Virus record (IMG/VR): IMGVR_UViG_3300043548_000125
Coordinates: 1-21,263 of that record
DNA from: a virus
Length of the DNA stretch: 21,263 bases
Strand: one strand, 5' to 3'
Part shown: one piece after another, positions 301-21,033 of the stretch
Numbering within the stretch: the first letter of the stretch is position 1
How the letters are laid out: every line of letters starts with the position of its first letter
The notes under the pieces: model-generated
Databases searched by the model: none
What the model was told of the DNA's origin: nothing
The model's input: the letters and a program-made list of their open reading frames with translations, nothing else
Program-made: the position numbers and the translations under genes

Positions 301-3300
301 TTACTTCAGCTTCGCGGCGTTTGCAATAGTTGAAGCGTTACCTTTTGTTTTTGATTTTCTAGTCTTTTCTTCTTCCATTGCTGGATTATATCCCCATTCA
401 AAGATGGAATTTCCATCTGTGTAAATGTCTTTCGCTTTCACGCTTTTGCTAAAAATGCGATATTCTCCTTGCAATGCAGAATCACCATGATCTTTAGCGT
501 ATTGCTTGCTGGTTGTCACCCAATCACCAGAACGGAAAACATATTTTGACGGAGACCCAGTTTTTCTGGCCTCTTCTGCTACATCAACTGGAACAGCACG
601 GTATATTGTGATACTGGCATTTGGGTTGTCTTTAAGGCGTTTGATTTTCTTCATTTCCTCTAGCCCCGCATCCTGCTCATACCAGTCTGGTCGTGTGTAT
701 ACATCGGCAGGATATACTCCATTGCCAGTAAGATCATGTGCTGGAGCGGATTCAGATGTGGGTGCTGTATGCGTGCCGCGATAATCCTCTGGCATGAACC
801 GCATCTGCCCAGTCTGCGAAATCTTCCGCATCTCTGGGGTGATTTCGACTTTCCAGATTGGTACTGCTTTGCCCTCGACTCTACCTTGTGATTCTAGCTG
901 CGCCAATTCCTCTGGAGTAGCGTCAGACAGGTCGCCCATGTCCAAATCTTCTCTTGAGATAGATTGACCGATTTGCGACTTCTCCACCTTCCCATTCCAC
1001 TGCTTGACATACTTGCCAATCTCCTTGGGTAAAATGTCATCATAGAACCCCCTCATTCCCTTGGATTCTGTTTTTAAATCAAGCCCTTCAAGATGATGCC
1101 AATCTCGATAACCTTCTGTATCTTTGCGCCCCTCTTTTGCTAGTACTTTTTCTGCTATTTCTTTTCCCGCCAACTCCTCAATTCTGTCAATATTGATGTC
1201 GGTTTCTGAAATAACTGGATTTAAATTATCGTTCAATGGATACGCCTCAAAATCAAAAGTTCCATCTGGATTTGGTTCGTAACTAATTCTTGAAAGTCTT
1301 TTGCTTAAATCAAATCGATCTGATTGTGTTGAACCAGTAGTCCACCCCACCCACTCCTTGCCAGAATCAACAGCATCACGCAGTGCGCGTTTGAATAGTT
1401 GGATGGGCCAAGTGGTGCGGAAGGGTGCGTCTGCAACGCTTCGTTCGTCTTGAACTTTCCGTATTGAAAATCGATGTCTTTTTTCTTCTGAAATGCTCTC
1501 ATCAATCCATTGGCGCGCTTCGGCTTCACTTTTAAAATATGGTGATTCTCCGGTTGCGCTCACAGCTTTCCATTTGTCTTCTTCTCCACGATACCCCTTC
1601 TTCCTCCCCTCTTGATGCCTGTCGGACTGGAACTCCTCCACGAACAATCCCGGCCTACCATCCGCATCCACACGCTCGTTTGTACGCATGTGGGCAACGT
1701 AGTTGGGGATGTTGGGGAAGTGGGATGAGGTATAAACATTTTTATTTACTTCACTATCCTTTAGATTCGCAGCCCTAGAGAAATCTTGCCATTTTGCATA
1801 CTGATCTGGGTAATTATCCCTCAACCAAGCAGTTTGATAAAGTGGATTCGCATCGGCAGGAAAATCTTGAAGTTTTGTTGCTTCATCCCAAGCTTCATCT
1901 CTTAGTTTTATGGCTTGTTCCTTGGATACTCCAGTTTTGCTTTGCATTGCCAGCACCACCTCGCGGTAGTTCTCTCCTCCGGGGAGTTGGTATTGGGCGT
2001 ATTTGGGGTCACCCTTTCCTTTGGAATATGCTCCAGCAAAAGCTCTCCAATCATATTCTTTCTGCAAAAGTTGAGCGAAAAATGCCTTGTCTTCTGGGTC
2101 TGTTGCACTTTCCCATTGTGCGTATTGCTCTGGCATTGTTTCTTTCGCCCATTCAGATACAGACATTTCACTCACCTTTTTAGGTTTGCTTAATGTAACC
2201 TCCTCAAACCTCACTCTACCCTCATTCCGCAAGTAGTTCAGCAAATCCTCCTTGGATACCTTGCCGTCCTTCTCCAGACTCGCCAACGCCTGCTCAATTC
2301 CGCTCCACTTGATCTCATCGGCCTTGACTCCACTTCCCCTCGTCGGGTCGATGGTCGCCATGATCTGCTGCGGAGTTGCTCGACTGGGGACTTTGTCGGT
2401 GATGACGCGATCCAGTTGGGAGTAGAACTTGTCCTCGTCCACACCCTCTGGCATGAAGCGTGTCTGCGATGGTGCGGGTGCTTCACCCTCTGGCATCTGG
2501 CGTTGCTCTGGCATCCTCACCGCACTCACTGCTTCGTAGCTGAATGGCATTGCAGGATACTCGTCTGGCGACATTGGAACCGCTTTGCTGACACGATCTG
2601 CGCGGTAGGTGCGATAGACGTTATCACGGCTTTTCACACCATCCTCTAGGAGCATTGGGTTAAGAACTGCCTGTTCCTTTTGGTTGAGCAGGCCAAACAT
2701 CGTGTTGATGAACTTCTTGCGCTGGTCTGCCTCGACAGCACCATACTTTTGACTGAAGTACTCAAGGCTATCCACGCCTTGCTTGTGGTAGTCCATCATT
2801 GCCTGCGTGTCGCTCAGGATCAAATCCACGTTGCCACCATAAAGCTTTTTGCCACGCTTGCTCTGTGAGCGTTTCTGGATGTTCTCATGCAGCTTGGTGA
2901 CCGACATCAACCCAAACAACAGATTTCCGTCCTTGGAGATTGTAACTGCGACTGGAACCGTGTCGCGTAGCGTTGCCGCCTGCGGCTTATAAACAACCTT
3001 TCCTGCCTTGTTGCGGGTGGTGGCTGGGAAGTTAATCATCACCACACGATCTCCAGCACCCTTGCGGATTAGCTTGTTCATTTCGCGGATGATTCGCTTC
3101 TGCTCTGGGTTGTACTTGTTCTTGGCGAACATCTCGGTGAGAACATCGTTGGACAACCATCCGGGTTGGAATTGCCCCTCGTCATCGATGTGCGCCTCAC
3201 CCTTTTCTGGGGCGTAGTTCTCATCACGCTTCCTCTGTAGGACTTCCTTGGCAGTAAGACCAGCAAGCGCACGTTCAAGCTCTGTAGCCCTGTCTAGTGC

Positions 3301-6300
3301 CACTGGCTTGCCGTCCTGCATGATAGGCTTGCCAGTGTCGTCAACCTTGACAAGTGGGTGAAGAAGCTCGGCATCGATGCCGTCAGCGGGGTTAAGGATA
3401 ATTGGCGCACCAGAGTCTGGTTTATCGCTCATAAGCGGATCAAACTGACCCGGCACAAGCCCCGCACTTCGCCTGTTCATGTCGCGGAACATCTTGCTGG
3501 TGATTGGGTCACGCTTGACACCCTCTGCGTCTAGGATGCCGTTTCCAGTCACCCATGCACCATTCGCGTCGATCATGCCACCGCTCTTGAAGTGGAGGTC
3601 TTTGAGGACTGGGATGCGAGGCAGGACGGTCTCAAGGATTGACCCAAGCTTGCGCCTAGCAGCACCGCTGGCTGCGACCGCTCCAAGTTCCCCAGACTCT
3701 GCCATTGCAGCATACTGGTCCGCATGCTTTTCAATGAAGTATTCAACCGCGATCTTATCGAGTGGGTAGATAGCATCCCTCTCTGCGTTGGACATACCCT
3801 CGACACCAAGACGCTTGTAGTATCCATCGCGGAATGCCTCGAAATTCGGGTCTAGCTTTCCATCCCTAGAACGGAACAATCCACCAACCGTGTTATTTTT
3901 TGTATCACCAAGGAACAGGGCAGAAATGCCATTTTCCATGTTGTTCTTGATTATGGTATGGTGAAGCGTTTCGTGTGCAACCAGTGCCTTGATTGGGTTG
4001 GTTGACTTTACGTTGATGATTGCCGTATTGGTGTTAGGGTCGTACCTACTTGCGCCAGAGTCCTTGAAGATGTAGTTGAGTGTAGGGTTGGCGATTGAAT
4101 AGGTTGCAATCGCCCTACGTGTTCCTGCTGGTATAGCCTCAAACAATGCCTTCTGGCGTGGATCGGTAAGGTCGCGTCTAAAGTTAAGCTCATCACCAAT
4201 CGAAAGCTCACGCATGCGCTTCTTGGTTCCCATGAACGCACCACCAGCTCCAGCAAATGATCCACCAATAAAGAACGACTCAGCACTTGCTTGATACAGG
4301 GTTTCTGGACGCATGTCAGCACCATCAGACAGGTACTCAAACATCAAGTCCGTAGGTGCGGCTGCGGCAATACCACGACCCGCCCTGCGGATTGTGTCAG
4401 ATGTGACACCACCAAGGTCCAGCATGTTGAATGTGTGAGCTACACCGCGACCGAAAGAACCCGGTGCGGTGTGTGCCGCCACACGCTTCCAGAATGGAAT
4501 CTGACCACGTACATTTTCCATCTCTTTCCCAACATAACGGAATAGCTTCCCGTAGTTTGACAGAACCTTGCCGGTTTTGAGTGCAGCGGCCCCTGCACCG
4601 ATAGCCCCGATAACTGGACTGCCTGCCAAACCTACGACCCCTGCCGCACCAACGGCTGCGGTGTACATTTGGTCAAGACCACGTTCTTGAAGAAAGTTTG
4701 TGACTGCCGTATCAGTCTTTGAAATAGTGCCACCAACACGTTCCAAGGTTGCGCCAACTGCCTTTGCTGGCATGGCACGCATCTGCCTTCCAAGTTCCAT
4801 CGTCTGAAGAACCTTCTGTGAGTAGGCTTCTGGAATTCTGGTTGCCAAGCTATTGCGTTTTGCGACAAGATTGTCTAACTCCGATGTAATTGTTGGCAAT
4901 GTTGCTCGTATTTTGTTTGCCTCTTCAGTTAGTCTGGTTGCTACTTGAGATGCTTGATTCGCACGTGCAACAAGTTCTGGATTAGATCCGGCGCGAGTGG
5001 ATATGTCAGCGGCAAGTCTATTTGCTAGATTTACGCTTGCTGCCTCCTTGTTAAGCAAAGCATTGGCTTCTGCTACGGCAACCTTTCCTTGGGCAATTGC
5101 CATTTCTTGTTTTGCAATATCACCAAGCCTTCTTTGTGCTGTTATACTAATTCGCGTTCCAAGTGGTGCGCTTGTTGCTGCTTTAACTGCAAAATTTGCA
5201 GTTACAAGATTTTCTGGGCTTAAAAATAACTGCTGGAATGCTGCTCCTTGCCCATACTGCTTATTGAATTCATCTTCACCAAGTCTGTTTTTTACTTCAT
5301 CAACTTGTTTAACCGCTCCATCAATGTTCAGAATCGTTTCAGCTAATTCGCCAGCATCTTTGTTGATGTAATTTTGTTGAGCATTCCACAAATCATATCT
5401 AGCACGAACCAAATCTTGATCAGCCTCGTCTTCAACCTCTTGTGGTAAAATTCCAGAAAGCACACTTTTTGTTTTGGCCTTGGCAATTCCAGCAATTCCA
5501 GAAAGACCAATCACGCCCCTAACGAATTCTTCATAGATCCCGTATTCAGAAGCCACCATCTTGTCGCGTAACTCTTGGGGTCTCCTGTCATCCATGCCAA
5601 TTAGACTTGGCCAAGTTTGACTGTTGTACCATGCAGCTTGCGCCCCTTGTGACACACCCTCTGGTAGGCTCATTACGCCCTTTTTCAATAAGTCCACAAC
5701 ACCAGCACCAATTTCCCCCAATGATCCACTTGTGCGAATAAGTCCATCTTTCCAGAGGGTGTCAAAAATTTCTCTATTCTCTGGCTTGTTAACCCATTCG
5801 CCAGATATATCCTGCATTTCTTCTAATGGAGTGAGATAGGCAATCCCCTTTTTGTTGATCGTGCCATCCTCATTAAACACCCCAGAGTTTTTTAGGTGGA
5901 AGAACAACTCTCCTTTTTCTGTGGCTTTTCCTTCGCCATCCACAAAACCCAACGCCTTGATCTTATTGGCATCGAGTGGTTTGGCAAACACCTCCAGCGG
6001 AGACGATGCAATCTCTCCAGCATCATTACGCAGTGAATCAACCTCTTCCCCAACAATGTCCGTTACGGCTTGCTCGTATGGTGTGATGGACACCATGTCA
6101 CCACCGAACTGCGCCTGTGCTTGATTTGCAAAGTTGGAAACAACCCGTGGCTCCTCTTGTGGAGCAACCATGCTTTCTTTGGCAACTGGAGCGGTTAGAT
6201 CGGCAACCTCTTCTACTGGTTGCGGCTCATAAACGTACTGCTCCAGAGGAGTAAGATCGCGGGTGACAGGTGCTTGTACTGGCTTATTGTAAGCCTCAAC

Positions 6301-6429
6301 CAGAGTCTCTGGTTGTAAAACATTTAATTGTCCTAGCGTTCTTTCAACGTCCTTAGACAGCAATTCAAGGCTGCTTTTGACCTTTTTATTGAATGCTGGC
6401 TTTTCTTCTTCGGGAACATTGTAAGACAT
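301..6429 (-). CDS. Giant 2042-aa polyvalent virion/ejection protein with zincin motif and C-terminal ART-like domain
   Basis: This is the last virion gene and probably a protein ejected with the DNA, comparable in position and size to T7 gp16 and the giant polyvalent proteins of phages. Seen in order: a low-complexity N-terminus; a long Ala/Glu-rich coiled coil at about residues 430-560; a Gly/Ala-rich hydrophobic stretch at about 590-640; an HExxH zinc-protease motif, HETLH at 819-823, with a possible third ligand near AVEYF at about 895; a region at about 1430-1870 carrying VEEFQSDRHQEGR, DAPFRTTWP and GWTTGSTQSDRFDLSK, patterns I recognise from large phage proteins; and a C-terminal ADP-ribosyltransferase-like domain (R1944 in IYRAVP, S1974 in WVTTS, E2011 in FEWGY). 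RFMPE-type peptides near 1323 and 1875 sit at domain borders. Its start shares TAATG with the upstream stop. The virion role is inferred; the motifs are seen. Confidence 0.85.
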   Translation of the reverse strand: MSYNVPEEEKPAFNKKVKSSLELLSKDVERTLGQLNVLQPETLVEAYNKPVQAPVTRDLTPLEQYVYEPQPVEEVADLTAPVAKESMVAPQEEPRVVSNFANQAQAQFGGDMVSITPYEQAVTDIVGEEVDSLRNDAGEIASSPLEVFAKPLDANKIKALGFVDGEGKATEKGELFFHLKNSGVFNEDGTINKKGIAYLTPLEEMQDISGEWVNKPENREIFDTLWKDGLIRTSGSLGEIGAGVVDLLKKGVMSLPEGVSQGAQAAWYNSQTWPSLIGMDDRRPQELRDKMVASEYGIYEEFVRGVIGLSGIAGIAKAKTKSVLSGILPQEVEDEADQDLVRARYDLWNAQQNYINKDAGELAETILNIDGAVKQVDEVKNRLGEDEFNKQYGQGAAFQQLFLSPENLVTANFAVKAATSAPLGTRISITAQRRLGDIAKQEMAIAQGKVAVAEANALLNKEAASVNLANRLAADISTRAGSNPELVARANQASQVATRLTEEANKIRATLPTITSELDNLVAKRNSLATRIPEAYSQKVLQTMELGRQMRAMPAKAVGATLERVGGTISKTDTAVTNFLQERGLDQMYTAAVGAAGVVGLAGSPVIGAIGAGAAALKTGKVLSNYGKLFRYVGKEMENVRGQIPFWKRVAAHTAPGSFGRGVAHTFNMLDLGGVTSDTIRRAGRGIAAAAPTDLMFEYLSDGADMRPETLYQASAESFFIGGSFAGAGGAFMGTKKRMRELSIGDELNFRRDLTDPRQKALFEAIPAGTRRAIATYSIANPTLNYIFKDSGASRYDPNTNTAIINVKSTNPIKALVAHETLHHTIIKNNMENGISALFLGDTKNNTVGGLFRSRDGKLDPNFEAFRDGYYKRLGVEGMSNAERDAIYPLDKIAVEYFIEKHADQYAAMAESGELGAVAASGAARRKLGSILETVLPRIPVLKDLHFKSGGMIDANGAWVTGNGILDAEGVKRDPITSKMFRDMNRRSAGLVPGQFDPLMSDKPDSGAPIILNPADGIDAELLHPLVKVDDTGKPIMQDGKPVALDRATELERALAGLTAKEVLQRKRDENYAPEKGEAHIDDEGQFQPGWLSNDVLTEMFAKNKYNPEQKRIIREMNKLIRKGAGDRVVMINFPATTRNKAGKVVYKPQAATLRDTVPVAVTISKDGNLLFGLMSVTKLHENIQKRSQSKRGKKLYGGNVDLILSDTQAMMDYHKQGVDSLEYFSQKYGAVEADQRKKFINTMFGLLNQKEQAVLNPMLLEDGVKSRDNVYRTYRADRVSKAVPMSPDEYPAMPFSYEAVSAVRMPEQRQMPEGEAPAPSQTRFMPEGVDEDKFYSQLDRVITDKVPSRATPQQIMATIDPTRGSGVKADEIKWSGIEQALASLEKDGKVSKEDLLNYLRNEGRVRFEEVTLSKPKKVSEMSVSEWAKETMPEQYAQWESATDPEDKAFFAQLLQKEYDWRAFAGAYSKGKGDPKYAQYQLPGGENYREVVLAMQSKTGVSKEQAIKLRDEAWDEATKLQDFPADANPLYQTAWLRDNYPDQYAKWQDFSRAANLKDSEVNKNVYTSSHFPNIPNYVAHMRTNERVDADGRPGLFVEEFQSDRHQEGRKKGYRGEEDKWKAVSATGESPYFKSEAEARQWIDESISEEKRHRFSIRKVQDERSVADAPFRTTWPIQLFKRALRDAVDSGKEWVGWTTGSTQSDRFDLSKRLSRISYEPNPDGTFDFEAYPLNDNLNPVISETDINIDRIEELAGKEIAEKVLAKEGRKDTEGYRDWHHLEGLDLKTESKGMRGFYDDILPKEIGKYVKQWNGKVEKSQIGQSISREDLDMGDLSDATPEELAQLESQGRVEGKAVPIWKVEITPEMRKISQTGQMRFMPEDYRGTHTAPTSESAPAHDLTGNGVYPADVYTRPDWYEQDAGLEEMKKIKRLKDNPNASITIYRAVPVDVAEEARKTGSPSKYVFRSGDWVTTSKQYAKDHGDSALQGEYRIFSKSVKAKDIYTDGNSIFEWGYNPAMEEEKTRKSKTKGNASTIANAAKLK

Positions 6430-12929: not shown

Positions 12930-12948
12930 TTGCCCCTTGCCCAGTGCT

Positions 12949-13020
12949 TGCCTTGTAGCTTAACGGACAAAGCGACCGTAGTAAAATTCGGTGATCTGGG
13001 TTCAAATCCCAGCAAGGCTA
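12949..13020 (+). tRNA. tRNA-like sequence with irregular anticodon arm (isotype unassigned)
   Basis: This is the only RNA-gene candidate on the plus strand. A 6-bp acceptor stem (GCCTTG with CAAGGC; the terminal 1-72 pair is T-T) encloses TA at positions 8-9. The D-arm is GCTT/AAGC with loop AACGGACA, which contains the GG and the final A. The T-arm is a perfect CTGGG/CCCAG with loop TTCAAAT. The region between them is abnormal: ACCG and CGGT pair around a 10-base loop, or five pairs form if one T is bulged, leaving a 7-base loop GTAAAAT that would read as anticodon AAA. The variable loop is then only 3 bases. CCA is not encoded. It could be a divergent, decayed or non-translating tRNA-like element. 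A hairpin terminator follows at 13047. Confidence 0.55.
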
Positions 13021-13046
13021 GGTTGGCAATTTGGGAAATTTTTGAA

Positions 13047-15640: not shown

Positions 15641-15766
15641 CTATAATAAAGTTCTTTTGATTGGTAGTATGTTTTGACCTAGGCTCGTTGACTCACGGAT
15701 AGCTACTTCCCGCCGGGTTTCATCGAGCCGGACTAACCCGGTTCCCTTTGTCGTCAAATTTTTCAT
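15641..15766 (-). CDS. Small hypothetical protein (41 aa)
   Basis: An ATG at 15764-15766 overlaps the stop of the PP-loop gene as ATGA, the junction used throughout this module. The frame reads MKNLTTKGTGLVRLDETRRE then VAIRESTSLGQNILPIKRTL before a TAG stop. It is basic and has no recognisable motif. A 7-bp inverted repeat (15713-15719 with 15735-15741) lies inside it. Support is the coupling and the otherwise empty gap; expression is not proven. Confidence 0.45.
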   Translation of the reverse strand: MKNLTTKGTGLVRLDETRREVAIRESTSLGQNILPIKRTLL

Positions 15767-16656
15767 ACTCCGCACATTCCTTCGCACTCAGCTTGGAAAT
15801 CCCAAGTCATTTGTCCTTTTTGCTCATCGCTATCAAAGTCGATTTCGGCAAGTGGTTTGCATGAGTTGTGGAGGTAAACTGACATCTTCATATTTTTATC
15901 GTATTTTTTATATGCAGACCGAATATCCTCATCAAATTGAATTGCCTTCGCAAACTCGACTGGATTTTCATCCCGTAATCGTCTCCACTCTTTATCTGAG
16001 TGAAACGGGCAGTAATAACACGCCGATCTCGGAGGTTCTGGATATCCATTATTTTTCATCCAATCCAAACAAGACCGTCTGCTCATTTTGTGTTCAATTA
16101 GCGGCCATCGGTGCTGAAGCCAAGGAAGTCTCGATTCTTTCATGCGCTGTAATTCGTCCATCGAAATACCAATCCATTGAGTAACTGTAACATTTTTCTG
16201 ACCCCTTGAGACTCCGCATAACTCCTTTATTTTATTGTGGATTGGAACGATTTTGTAATCCGAAGTGCATCTTCTTCCGATTGCGGCTACACGATTTCCG
16301 TTTGGCATCTGACCAAACAAAGGAATTAGATTTTTCAAATAAGACGATCCAACTGGCATACCCTTGCCATTATCTCTTTTTTTAACCACAGGGACTAAGC
16401 AATCCTCGGTCAAGTTTCCTTTTGTAACTGTGTATATTGGAAATGGGTATTCGCTGGATGAAATTTCTTTTTTTAGGTACTCAAGCCATTCCATCACTTG
16501 TTGAGGTTCAGCTTGCGTATCAGCGAACACCGCAAAGTCTGGCTTTGGCGTTACCTCTCCTTTGGCCGCCATGAGTGCAAGGCATGAGGACTGAACGCCC
16601 GCTCCAAGGCTGAGGACATTCCACTTTGTCGGCGGTGGTGGATCAAATAGTTTCAT
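15763..16656 (-). CDS. Phage PAPS-reductase-like PP-loop (adenine nucleotide alpha hydrolase) protein (297 aa)
   Basis: The PP-loop SLGAGVQSS at residues 16-24 and the FADTQAEPQQVMEWLEYLKK segment (44-63) define the PAPS-reductase/ATP-sulfurylase-like fold, which activates a substrate by adenylation or binds PAPS. R128-R129-C130-T-S-D-Y-K135 is the usual phage version of the substrate loop. Further cysteines at 147, 196, 213 and 216 (CYYCPFHSDKEW) and 291/295 could bind zinc or an iron-sulfur cluster, as in DndC-like relatives. The true reaction of phage members is mostly unknown; DNA or RNA sulfur chemistry is one possibility. The gene is AT-richer than its neighbours, suggesting separate acquisition. 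It couples by ATGA to genes on both sides. Confidence 0.8.
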   Translation of the reverse strand: MKLFDPPPPTKWNVLSLGAGVQSSCLALMAAKGEVTPKPDFAVFADTQAEPQQVMEWLEYLKKEISSSEYPFPIYTVTKGNLTEDCLVPVVKKRDNGKGMPVGSSYLKNLIPLFGQMPNGNRVAAIGRRCTSDYKIVPIHNKIKELCGVSRGQKNVTVTQWIGISMDELQRMKESRLPWLQHRWPLIEHKMSRRSCLDWMKNNGYPEPPRSACYYCPFHSDKEWRRLRDENPVEFAKAIQFDEDIRSAYKKYDKNMKMSVYLHNSCKPLAEIDFDSDEQKGQMTWDFQAECEGMCGV

Positions 16657-18777: not shown

Positions 18778-19226
18778 TGCTTTGTCCCGTAGTAGGCTAT
18801 GAGTAATGCGTCTGCTGTAGCGTGGGTGATCTTGCGGTCTGGGAATAGTTCCTGCGCTTTGCTCTTACTGACGTTCTTATCACCCTTGGTCATGCAACCT
18901 AGTGCCTTCTGCCAGACTTGTGGGCGCACACGCTCAAATGGTATTCCTGCTGCCGTCAACGCCATCTCAAGGTTGCCATATCCTCGGCCAAAACTAAATG
19001 CCGATACCACGCCCATCTGTGGACTGCTCGCCACCTGCTCGATGTACGCCTTGTAACTCCTTCCGTCGATAGATGACTTCGGGTAGCTTGTAATGTCGCA
19101 GAGCAATTCCCAGAGGTCTTGCAGGGTGTCTGGAATCTTTTCAACGCAAGCCTTGCCGTTGTAGTCAATCCACGCGATGCCTCCGTTCGCGCCGGGGTCT
19201 ATGCCTATGGTGATTTCGTATTTCAT
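18774..19226 (-). CDS. RuvC-like Holliday junction resolvase (150 aa)
   Basis: This is an RNase H-fold endonuclease that would cut four-way junctions in replicating or recombining phage DNA. Acidic metal ligands are visible: D10 in IGIDPGANGG, E63 in YIEQV, and the H135-A-T-A-D139-A-LLIAYY motif near the C-terminus. SPQMGVVSAFSFGRGYGNLE (68-87) and RVRPQVWQKALG (99-110) match the phage RuvC-like group. At 150 residues it is a normal length. ATGA overlaps link it to the DnaA-like gene before it and the zinc protein after it. It fits with the exonuclease and SSB-like genes as a recombination set. Confidence 0.9.
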   Translation of the reverse strand: MKYEITIGIDPGANGGIAWIDYNGKACVEKIPDTLQDLWELLCDITSYPKSSIDGRSYKAYIEQVASSPQMGVVSAFSFGRGYGNLEMALTAAGIPFERVRPQVWQKALGCMTKGDKNVSKSKAQELFPDRKITHATADALLIAYYGTKQ

Positions 19227-19570
19227 TTGAGTCGTCTAATTACAAACATAGCCTTCTCCCGAAACGCCTCATCGTTGCGAGTGAAGCGGTCCGCTCGTTG
19301 TTTGGCGGCGATGACGGTGGTGTGGTTGTGACGCTGGAAGATACGCGCGGTCTCGGCTAGCGTGTGATGCTCGGCAACCAGTGCCATTGCGAGCGACCTA
19401 GCCTGCACTGGGGCAAGCTGTCGATCATATGCTAGGATCTGCGAAGGGTGGATGCCGAATATCTCGGCGCAAACCTCGATGATCTTCATGGCCTTGCTGC
19501 GGCTCATCCGTTGCGACAACTCCTTGCAAAGCTCGTCGGTTTTAAGGTCGGAAACGTGTGTGACTTTCAT
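19223..19570 (-). CDS. Stand-alone DnaA domain IV-like DNA-binding protein (115 aa)
   Basis: I start at the ATG at 19568-19570 (MKVTHVSDLKTDELCKELSQ). The longer open frame to 19723 would cross a structured intergenic element. Residues 28-98 match DnaA domain IV: IIEVCAEIFGIHPSQIL, then QARSLAMALVAEHHTLAETA and RIFQRHNHTTVIAAKQRAD, with NHTTV (82-86) in place of the DHTTV signature that contacts the DnaA box. There is no AAA+ domain, so it binds DNA without ATP-driven opening. It may recognise DnaA boxes, compete with host DnaA, or act as a regulator. The start lies 10 bases after the candidate pseudoknot RNA. Confidence 0.8.
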   Translation of the reverse strand: MKVTHVSDLKTDELCKELSQRMSRSKAMKIIEVCAEIFGIHPSQILAYDRQLAPVQARSLAMALVAEHHTLAETARIFQRHNHTTVIAAKQRADRFTRNDEAFREKAMFVIRRLK

Positions 19571-19580
19571 TGGAAAATTT

Positions 19581-19633
19581 GCCCTGCGAGGAACCCGTGG
19601 GCCACGGGCAGAACACTGCGCCCTCGCTCGCAG
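19581..19633 (-). ncRNA. Candidate cis-regulatory RNA, copy A (stem, hairpin, pseudoknot)
   Basis: On the minus strand: outer stem CTGCGAG (19633-19627) with CTCGCAG (19590-19584), an 18-base spacer, the hairpin CCCGT-GGCCC-ACGGG (19608-19594), TTC, the outer 3' arm, then GGCAAATTTT. The GGCCC loop can pair with GGGC at 19584-19581, an H-type pseudoknot. The ATG of the DnaA-like gene is 10 bases further on, so folding could block its initiation region. It matches copy B in layout and differs by paired changes. Confidence 0.55.
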
Positions 19634-19637
19634 AAAC

Positions 19638-19895
19638 TTATGCGTGGTTGGATACCAAATCGATTGCGGATTGGATGACGATGATGCCGTCACCCTTTGC
19701 GGGTGCGTGCTTGTCAACACCATGCTCTAGGGTGGCGAGATACCACCACTCCTTGGCGTTGACTGGCATGACCCGGTAGAAGTCCCCGATAATCTGGATG
19801 TCGTTGTAGACATCACCCTCGGAGGTTCTCATCCTGCGAATGATGTCTGGGTTTTTGACCTTGGTCTTGTATTTGAATTTAAGTGTGCGGTTCAT
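19638..19895 (-). CDS. Hypothetical protein (85 aa)
   Basis: The start is at 19893-19895 (MNRTLKFKYKTKVKNPDIIR). It has a basic N-terminus and alternating strands (DIQIIGDFYRVMPVNAKEWW YLATLEH split over the middle), suggesting a small beta-barrel or mixed fold. There is no catalytic motif. It is flanked on both sides by the two copies of the candidate pseudoknot RNA, which is unusual in an otherwise gapless region. It lies in the replication/recombination set; function unknown. Confidence 0.65.
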   Translation of the reverse strand: MNRTLKFKYKTKVKNPDIIRRMRTSEGDVYNDIQIIGDFYRVMPVNAKEWWYLATLEHGVDKHAPAKGDGIIVIQSAIDLVSNHA

Positions 19896-19900
19896 GGAAA

Positions 19901-19929
19901 GTTAAAGATCACAATTTGTGATGTTAAAG
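19901..19929. promoter_or_regulatory. Operator-like palindrome between two direct repeats
   Basis: ATCACAATTTGTGAT (19908-19922) is a perfect 7+1+7 inverted repeat, flanked exactly by GTTAAAG at 19901-19907 and 19923-19929. It lies 6 bases upstream of the ATG at 19895. It could be a repressor site or a hairpin hiding the start. Confidence 0.45.
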
Positions 19930-19930
19930 G

Positions 19931-19984
19931 TTGCCCTGTAACGAACCTTCGGGCCAAAGGACATGCAATGAGACTTGTCGTTAC
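19931..19984 (-). ncRNA. Candidate cis-regulatory RNA, copy B (stem, hairpin, pseudoknot)
   Basis: On the minus strand: outer stem GTAACG (19984-19979) with CGTTAC (19943-19938), an 18-base spacer, the hairpin CCTTT-GGCCC-GAAGG (19960-19946), TTC, the outer 3' arm, then AGGGCAA. GGGC (19936-19933) can pair with the GGCCC loop. It precedes the 85-aa gene by 37 bases. Loop, spacer length, TTC and CAGGGCAA are the same as in copy A while the stems differ. Confidence 0.55.
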
Positions 19985-19997
19985 TCAAGCGCACCCA

Positions 19998-20225
19998 TCA
20001 AAAGGGAATTTCGTCGGTCTCTTCTTTCGGCGCGGGTTTAGCCGCAGCCTTGTCTTCAACCTTCAAAGAAATGAACTTGCCTTTCTTGCCCTCTCGGACC
20101 CACCCGACGATCTCATATTCTTTGCCGTTGACATCAACCTTGCCCTTGTAGGCAGGACGTTTTGGGTTGTCGCCAACATCGTTTTTAAACAGAATGCCCG
20201 TATTCGTATTATCGTAGTTACTCAT
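19998..20225 (-). CDS. SSB-like protein with DEIPF tail (75 aa)
   Basis: I use the ATG at 20223-20225 (MSNYDNTNTGILFKNDVGDN); a longer frame to 20282 overlaps the exonuclease gene. One small beta domain (KRPAYKGKVDVNGKEYEIVG, WVREGKKGKFISLKVED) is followed by a Lys/Ala/Pro linker and an acidic tip EETDEIPF. That tip is the hallmark of single-strand binding proteins, used to recruit partner enzymes. The domain is shorter than a full OB-fold SSB (about 110 residues), so it may be a reduced version or a related small family. It sits directly after the exonuclease, as expected for a recombination set. Confidence 0.65.
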   Translation of the reverse strand: MSNYDNTNTGILFKNDVGDNPKRPAYKGKVDVNGKEYEIVGWVREGKKGKFISLKVEDKAAAKPAPKEETDEIPF

Positions 20226-20229
20226 GGTA

Positions 20230-21033
20230 TTACTTTGTTTTGGTTGCCCACTTTGGAGGTGAGATTGTTTGGATGCCGTCAATGGCAGGGGGGAATGTGT
20301 TGGTCTGGACGCACTGGTTCCACTTGGCTAATGCCTGCATGTAACCTTCGCGGCCCAACTTAATGAAGTCCTCGTCGAGGAGGATGTTTGCCATCTCATA
20401 GGGACGCTCGGTCTCCATGAAGATAAACATGAACTCTGTGCGGTTGTCGCCAGATGCCATGTTCCAGAGGTCGAGGTACATAGACGCTTGAAGGTGATAA
20501 CCACGGTTGATGATCAGCGAGGTGAGTTGATCCACCGATTCAATGGACTGAGTTGTCTTGAGGTCAATCAACGACACACCAGAGTCTGGAACGAGGTCGA
20601 TAAGGCACTTGCAAGGTGTGCCAAATACATCCGCGAAAACAGCAATCTCGGTGCGATAACCGGGCAGATGCTCGATTGCTGGATTTTTTCGAAACGCATA
20701 CCCTGCGCTCTCCGCTTTGATGTACTCGTCAGCAGTGATGACCTGTATGCCAGTCATGCTGTCACGCCACTCCCTAGCCTCCTTGGTGCGGAAGTCGGAG
20801 TAAGGTGAAACGATGTACTCTGTCTCAAGCTTATGAGGCTCAAGGCAGGCAGTGTGGTACAGGACTCCAGTCCTCATAGCGGGAGTGCTTTCCTTCTCCC
20901 TGCGGTTATTGAACCACTTGTACGGACTGCGGTTGAAGTCCCAGAGCAGACTTTTGCTGACTGGGCCTTGGAGGTTGGTTGGGCTTGCGGTTTTCGAGTA
21001 GTACTCTCGCCCCATTCCTTCGATGATTTTCAT
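20230..21033 (-). CDS. RecE/YqaJ-like PD-(D/E)XK exonuclease (267 aa)
   Basis: This is a nuclease of the RecB/RecE superfamily, expected to resect double-strand ends for phage recombination. Core residues are visible: GVLYHTACLEP (56-66) with the conserved His, E129 in YRTEIAV, D146 in KCLIDLVPD, D157-L-K159-TT in the signature SLIDLKTTQS, and Q182...Y186 in GYHLQASMYLDLW. FRTKEAREWRD (81-91) is typical of the RecE C-terminal nuclease group. The start at 21031-21033 has a strong Shine-Dalgarno, AGGAGGT, 6 bases upstream and overlaps the previous stop as ATGA. The partner annealing protein is probably the gene before it. Confidence 0.88.
   Translation of the reverse strand: MKIIEGMGREYYSKTASPTNLQGPVSKSLLWDFNRSPYKWFNNRREKESTPAMRTGVLYHTACLEPHKLETEYIVSPYSDFRTKEAREWRDSMTGIQVITADEYIKAESAGYAFRKNPAIEHLPGYRTEIAVFADVFGTPCKCLIDLVPDSGVSLIDLKTTQSIESVDQLTSLIINRGYHLQASMYLDLWNMASGDNRTEFMFIFMETERPYEMANILLDEDFIKLGREGYMQALAKWNQCVQTNTFPPAIDGIQTISPPKWATKTK

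Follow-up and report, generated by a model that had tools for sequence, protein, structure and literature searches.

The recombination region of an uncultured phage (IMG/VR record IMGVR_UViG_3300043548_000125; the window analysed here is a stretch of 21,263 nucleotides) holds, in two gaps between genes, sequences that look like copies of one another. Is this likeness due to an RNA structure maintained by selection and, if so, what may such a structure do for the genes around it? Translational control by single-stranded DNA-binding proteins is known from a few model phages, and an answer would tell whether uncultured phages apply a similar logic, with another fold, to their recombination operons. 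A sequence-only reading of the window had proposed a covarying, pseudoknot-capable RNA with a role in control of translation.

Two Copies of an Intergenic Element in the Window

Both copies lie where the sequence-only reading had placed them: on the transcribed (minus) strand, one in the gap ahead of the gene of a DnaA_C-domain protein and one in the gap ahead of an 85-aa gene. The features of this region are as follows:

19223–19570 (−), gene of a DnaA domain IV-only protein, 115 aa, downstream of copy A; Pfam PF08299, E 2.6e-11
19579–19633 (−), copy A, double-pseudoknot RNA; 62.2 bits, member of the covariance model
19638–19895 (−), 85-aa gene, between copy B and copy A
19931–19990 (−), copy B, double-pseudoknot RNA; 63.2 bits, member of the covariance model
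19998–20225 (−), ssb, 75 aa, C-terminal tip DEIPF, directly upstream of copy B; PHROG 18154 and 7364 (single strand DNA binding protein), E 4e-15 and 5e-13
20230–21033 (−), exonuclease VIII-like gene, upstream of ssb; PHROG 412, E 6e-56; Pfam PF12684

The first helix of copy A (P1, see below) begins 5 nt past the stop codon of the 85-aa gene; 8 nt lie between the end of the fold and the ATG of the DnaA_C-domain gene. In copy B, P1 begins 8 nt past the ssb stop codon. Here an inserted stretch containing a TCACAAATTGTGA hairpin moves the next ATG to a distance of 35 nt downstream. The 85-aa protein had no Pfam or PHROG match; its structure model was weak and gave no fold match.

The window holds exactly two occurrences of the string GGCCC-N5-TTC-N4-CAGGGCAA. 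When up to three mismatches were allowed, shuffled sequences contained 0.21 matches on average, and 2 of 100 shuffles reached two. A descriptor of all four helices matched twice on the minus strand, not at all on the plus strand, and not at all in 300 dinucleotide-preserving shuffles of the window. Since this descriptor was written after the copies had been seen, the homologues are the real test, which they pass. Minimum-free-energy folding of both gaps gave no signal (z −0.5 to −0.9), as expected for a fold that is largely pseudoknotted.

Homologues in Viral Contigs

A string scan of IMG/VR returned 28 contigs, most of them with an intact 5-bp hairpin and complementary strands; the remainder was chance-like. 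A mis-spaced version of the pattern also drew 28 contigs, none of which had the element in a descriptor scan of all loci, and this sets a rough chance level. Because the first pattern fixed GGCCC, TTC, and CAGGGCAA, the conservation of these parts is partly built in for copies found with it. This bias is relaxed in copies from loci fetched by protein, which were, however, recognised by a covariance model trained on pattern-found copies (R1, comprising only the helices PK1 and P2).

All 16 contigs encoding a relative of the DnaA-like protein carried the element, 15 of them twice and one (L132) once; the expectation that further copies would stand upstream of related genes was thus borne out. 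At loci of a second SSB type (SSB-2), 18 of 46 had the element, in one copy each. Altogether, the family comprises 52 copies with 33 distinct sequences from 36 viral contigs, the window and the contig L033 included. Whole contigs contained one copy, or two that are ~330–350 nt apart with a gene between them, and no third copy was found in them.

The copy in L033, a G+C-rich contig, lies behind recT and a tRNA-Thr gene and is followed by a reading frame of just 13 codons. It was found by a second model that excluded L033 (42.5 bits, E 3e-9 in 369 kb). Since 79 other RecT-related loci gave no convincing copy, we regard it as an isolated occurrence.

Outside this set of contigs, a pattern scan of 84,980 bacterial and archaeal genomes gave 26 matches, none of which combined the hairpin with PK1. 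The model, run with strict filters on 369 genomes from one class and on 395 from one phylum, returned no match, and neither did the SSB-2 alignment when 388 genomes from a different phylum were searched with it; given the strict model filters and the missing positive control, these negatives do not show absence from bacterial genomes. Among cultured phages, blastn with two elements gave no match, nor did the model match downstream of the SSB-2 homologue in three cultured relatives that have this gene.

Consensus Fold

The consensus, ~55 nt long, consists of a P1 hairpin, a short spacer, a P2 hairpin, and a single 3′ strand that pairs first with the P1 loop and then with the P2 loop. The order of its parts is P1, loop L1, P1′, spacer, P2, loop L2, P2′, U, the 7-nt 3′ strand of PK1, A, GGGC, and AA. 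P1 has 4–7 bp, and L1 has exactly 8 nt, an A followed by seven paired bases; the spacer measures 7–13 nt. P2 has 5 bp (4 bp in four cores), and L2 is mostly GGCCC, with the variants GGCTCC, TGCCC, and CGCCC. The 7 bp of PK1 join L1 to the strand 3′ of P2, while the 4 bp of PK2 join L2 to the next four bases. In the window, the parts are:

Copy A
19629–19632 (−), 5′ strand of P1, TGCG; partner CGCA at 19617–19620
19621–19628 (−), loop L1, AGCGAGGG, 8 nt; positions 2–8 are the 5′ strand of PK1
19617–19620 (−), 3′ strand of P1, CGCA
19604–19608 (−), 5′ strand of P2, CCCGT; partner ACGGG at 19594–19598
19599–19603 (−), loop L2, GGCCC; its GCCC is the 5′ strand of PK2
19586–19592 (−), 3′ strand of PK1, TCCTCGC
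19581–19584 (−), 3′ strand of PK2, GGGC, followed by the invariant AA at 19579–19580

Copy B
19986–19989 (−), 5′ strand of P1, CTTG; partner CAAG at 19974–19977
19978–19985 (−), loop L1, AGTAACGA, 8 nt; positions 2–8 are the 5′ strand of PK1
19956–19960 (−), 5′ strand of P2, CCTTT; partner GAAGG at 19946–19950
19951–19955 (−), loop L2, GGCCC
19938–19944 (−), 3′ strand of PK1, TCGTTAC
19933–19936 (−), 3′ strand of PK2, GGGC, followed by AA at 19931–19932

In copy A, P1 is extended by one outer C-G pair (19633 with 19616). The connectivity suggests two interlocked H-type pseudoknots, in which the 7-bp PK1 and the 4-bp PK2 would each be crossed by one base and the 3′ strand of PK1 would sit in the third loop of the second knot.

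The sequence-only reading had described PK1 as an outer stem separated from an inner hairpin by exactly 18 bases in both copies. This spacing does not hold as a shared feature: in the register common to all homologues, the 5′ strand of PK1 and the inner hairpin are 12 nt apart in copy A but 17 nt apart in copy B. The pairing CTGCGAG/CTCGCAG of copy A, which gives 18, is a non-homologous alternative and was rejected; the conserved pairing is GCGAGGG/TCCTCGC. When the homologues were read side by side, the 5′ arm of the supposed outer stem always lay in an 8-nt loop closed by a stem of its own. This stem, P1 (TGCG/CGCA in copy A, CTTG/CAAG in copy B), is a third covarying helix that had been missed, and its existence makes the 5′ arm a hairpin loop.

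The conserved unpaired positions are few (the first A of the loop, the linker U and A, and the terminal AA), and the spacer is not conserved. Behind GGGCAA come sequences such as CCACTTTCC, and the tail is C/U-rich, resembling CACTTTCC in most copies. No long U-run follows the fold, nor does an intrinsic terminator or attenuator with a G+C-rich hairpin and a U-run.

Covariation and Strand Bias

In all 33 distinct cores, at least three of the four pairs of P1, six of the seven of PK1, and four of the five of P2 can form, as can all four of PK2. As a null, the substitutions inferred by parsimony on one FastTree phylogeny were replayed at random columns. Against it, the top 8 of 1770 column pairs were all structural, as were the 6 with E<0.05 (three in P1, two in PK1, and one in P2). 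The covariation claimed for the hairpin (P2) and the outer stem (PK1) thus extends across the homologues. P1 was 98.9% paired with both-sided changes at all four pairs, and this is an independent confirmation, since P1 pairing was outside the model that found the protein-selected copies.

In the alignment (A7), 99.3% of cells hold a standard pair compared to 33–41% when slid, and both-sided changes were seen in 92 cells compared to 25.8 in shuffles. On the coding strand, there are 59 G·U pairs and 5 A·C pairs, and selection therefore acts on the mRNA; every copy is also oriented like its genes. At the level of sequence comparison, covariation in three helices, the fraction of standard pairs, and the sense-strand G·U bias strongly support the earlier view that this is a selected RNA structure.

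The pairing of GGGCAA with the hairpin loop, also proposed earlier, has a different standing. PK2 (GCCC/GGGC) is essentially invariant, and the only changes are one-sided (GGGU in L168, and GCUC or a bulged U in GGCTCC loops). With no compensatory change, the case for this pairing rests on invariance and on the match of the two strands.

Gene Neighbourhood and Variation at Junctions

Nearly all copies lie in an ssb-containing recombination cassette. In the group to which the window belongs (group 1), the order is an ERF-type annealing protein (seen in L129), exonuclease, SSB-1, element, 85-aa gene, element, and DnaA_C protein; in group 2, it is DnaA_C protein, RecT, exonuclease, SSB-2, element, 68-aa gene, and a RuvC-like gene. 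The element is always downstream of ssb in both groups. SSB-1 proteins match PHROGs of single-stranded DNA-binding proteins. SSB-2 matches a PHROG of unknown function, and its structure model is poor; we call it a putative SSB because its tip is acidic (...IPF) and its gene stands behind those of annealing proteins and exonucleases, an arrangement also seen in Vibrio and Methylophilales phages.

DnaA domain IV-only proteins are found in both groups (window 19223–19570 (−), L144 550–1002 (+), and L158 413–751 (+)). In group 1, their genes follow the second element; in group 2, they precede recT.

P1 starts 5–13 nt past the stop codon in most copies and ~22 nt past it in the L150 subgroup. The terminal AA mostly ends 8–10 or 18–20 nt before an ATG, the overall distances being 6, 8–10, 18–20, and 35 nt. 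The downstream genes vary and include the 85-aa, DnaA_C, and 68-aa genes and, in L038, a 260-aa gene. A particular link to the DnaA-like gene, as first suggested, is therefore not general: the elements of group 2 and L033 precede other reading frames. A Shine–Dalgarno sequence is rarely recognisable in these phages, so its absence is uninformative and was rejected as a special feature of the element. Frameshifting or readthrough at the ssb stop codon was likewise rejected, as stop contexts and spacer lengths vary freely.

The element can be present or absent at the same junction. In L132, the ssb stop codon overlaps the start of the 85-aa gene (TGATG); copy B is absent, and copy A is kept. Distant SSB-2 loci have ~10–30 nt from ssb to the next ATG and no element. 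Such natural pairs, with and without the element at one junction, are ready controls. In five SSB-2 loci without the element (L145, L146, L162, L163, and L181), a small CxxC-containing gene lies directly behind ssb and is preceded by a promoter-like sequence.

Between the window and L046, the 85-aa gene is near-identical, and the ssb products share ~78% protein identity; in copy B, P1, PK1, and P2 all differ, with pairing maintained. A recombination breakpoint is apparently located at or near copy B (window 19931–19989 (−), L046 1867–1924). Within single phages, the P2 hairpins of the two copies are identical or nearly so in L136 and L142 and different in L131, which hints at occasional exchange between the copies.

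Comparison with Known RNAs

A search of window positions 19500–20050 against all families of Rfam 15 gave no match at E up to 10, in agreement with the earlier statement that the RNA matched no familiar class, although a published description outside Rfam is possible. At the gathering score, the whole window matched only a tRNA.

By its likely function, the nearest known RNA may be the operator of T4 gene 32, and by context, STAXI. The T4 protein gp32 represses its own mRNA through a pseudoknot and a less structured stretch (PMC535899). Like the element, the gene 32 operator of T4 and RB69 is a pseudoknot in a phage mRNA, close to a start codon and to an ssb-type gene, and its sequence diverges while the fold stays (PMC535899). 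At the element, the fold is given by covariation, and a tail of 8–35 nt lies before the start; this tail may correspond to the less structured stretch of the T4 operator. The T4 operator is a single pseudoknot of ~28 nt upstream of gene 32 itself. In contrast, the element has two interlocked pseudoknots and lies downstream of ssb and upstream of other genes, and SSB binding to it is hypothetical; no copy in groups 1 and 2 was found upstream of the SSB's own gene.

STAXI (RF01728) is a pseudoknot motif often found near ssb and other DNA-handling genes (PMC2864571). It is repeated two or three times in tandem, often with UUCG loops, whereas the element is single at each junction, has a GGCCC-type loop, and consists of two interlocked knots; no tandem pseudoknot repeat of the STAXI kind was seen at any junction. 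The RF01728 model, run without a sure STAXI as positive control, had no match in window positions 19500–20050 or in six viral contigs at E up to 10. The two RNAs are set apart here by covariance model and description, not by aligned sequences.

Two pseudoknots or long-range helices in a small RNA are also found in HDV-like and twister ribozymes and in the preQ1-III riboswitch. The element differs from these in that the loops of two separate hairpins pair with adjacent parts of one 3′ strand, and it had no Rfam match. Type III toxin–antitoxin systems (ToxI-like pseudoknot repeats) place a short pseudoknot RNA beside a small gene; the element, unlike these, has no tandem repeats, and its neighbours match no Pfam toxin family and differ between phage groups.

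Possible Functions of the Element

We lean, with moderate confidence, towards an mRNA structure that acts in cis to control how the following gene is translated, i.e., an operator or gate of two interlocked H-type pseudoknots. Control of translation is suggested by position and by precedent. With its end 8–20 nt before most starts, the folded element would lie in or beside the ribosome landing zone, and its own start would be close enough to be reached by a ribosome that stops on the upstream gene. The frequency with which the downstream gene is translated on its own, apart from the upstream gene, would then be set by folding or by a factor that binds the fold. With less confidence, we infer that such a factor would recognise the invariant PK2 and AA and would be a product of the operon itself. 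One candidate trans-factor is the SSB of the operon: as the most constant neighbour, it would make the element analogous to operators of phage single-stranded DNA-binding proteins such as T4 gp32.

Both the stop–element–start placement and the gain and loss at a junction among relatives support an operator. Because the start distance varies, a single steric model misfits some copies, and the several distance classes argue for recognition of the fold over one fixed steric block. A single protein partner is not obvious, as the downstream genes differ and the two SSB types match different families. The L033 element, which follows a tRNA gene and precedes only the 13-codon frame, speaks against an operator.

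The tight spacing from stop to element to start would also be consistent with a constitutive initiation or reinitiation module, in which the fold and its C/U-rich tail recruit ribosomes (e.g., through protein S1) or bridge stop to start without regulation. The CACTTTCC-like tail of most copies in phages poor in Shine–Dalgarno sequences would suit such a role, and genes without the element are joined by a TGATG overlap or a short gap. We nevertheless consider this unlikely, since relatives that lack the element retain these genes and show no substitute for it, the start distance is variable, and the invariance of PK2 suggests recognition over mere accessibility.

Somewhat less probable still is an intercistronic stabiliser or processing signal, an exonuclease block or RNase site that would set the relative levels of ssb and downstream mRNA. 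A compact pseudoknot can stop exonucleases, and the element lies directly behind the stop codon both at ssb and at the 85-aa gene. For this purpose, however, simple hairpins would suffice, the 3′ edge of the fold would not need to hold to a few start distances as it does, and no long U-run or terminator stands behind it.

The sequence-only reading had left the choice between a riboswitch-like and a protein-binding element of translational control. Placement between stop and start fits either and makes such control plausible; the two differ in how they fare against the conserved positions. Small translational riboswitches have a similar size, pseudoknot density, and position before starts, and PK2 and AA are nearly invariant. 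A new-class metabolite or ion riboswitch that times phage replication or recombination is nonetheless improbable in our view. The scarcity of conserved unpaired positions, together with the unconserved spacer, would speak less for a metabolite riboswitch than for a fold contacted by a protein or the ribosome, and the downstream genes have no metabolic theme, the neighbours being concerned only with DNA handling.

A DNA-level element, folded as a single strand for recombination, replication, or mobility, is disfavoured and very improbable: its place in a recombination cassette, the gain and loss at one junction, the mosaic breakpoint between the window and L046 near copy B, and the same idea considered for STAXI (PMC2864571) are outweighed by the excess of G·T over A·C on the coding strand, the constant gene orientation, the squeezed position between stop and start codons, and the lack of other copies in whole contigs.

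Beyond the operator reading, we tentatively raise the possibility of a new regulatory RNA class, an interlocked double pseudoknot that would answer a phage factor or a small ligand and set the output of the recombination operon, common to at least two phage groups that differ in their SSB and annealing proteins and to a third, unrelated phage, L033. The element adds a compact, well-defined fold to the regulatory RNAs of phages, and the consensus is good enough for searching and for bench tests.

Other Observations in the Window

A tRNA-like gene lies at 12948–13021 (+), on the strand opposite the phage genes; it scores 43.7 bits with the Rfam tRNA model, and ARAGORN assigns it no amino acid and an odd two-letter anticodon. 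At 301–6429 (−), a 2042-aa protein is encoded whose last ~160 residues match a PHROG of the ParB C-terminal domain (E 9e-37). A phosphoadenosine phosphosulfate reductase-like gene at 15763–16656 (−) (PHROG 424, E 6e-46) is a possible auxiliary metabolic gene.
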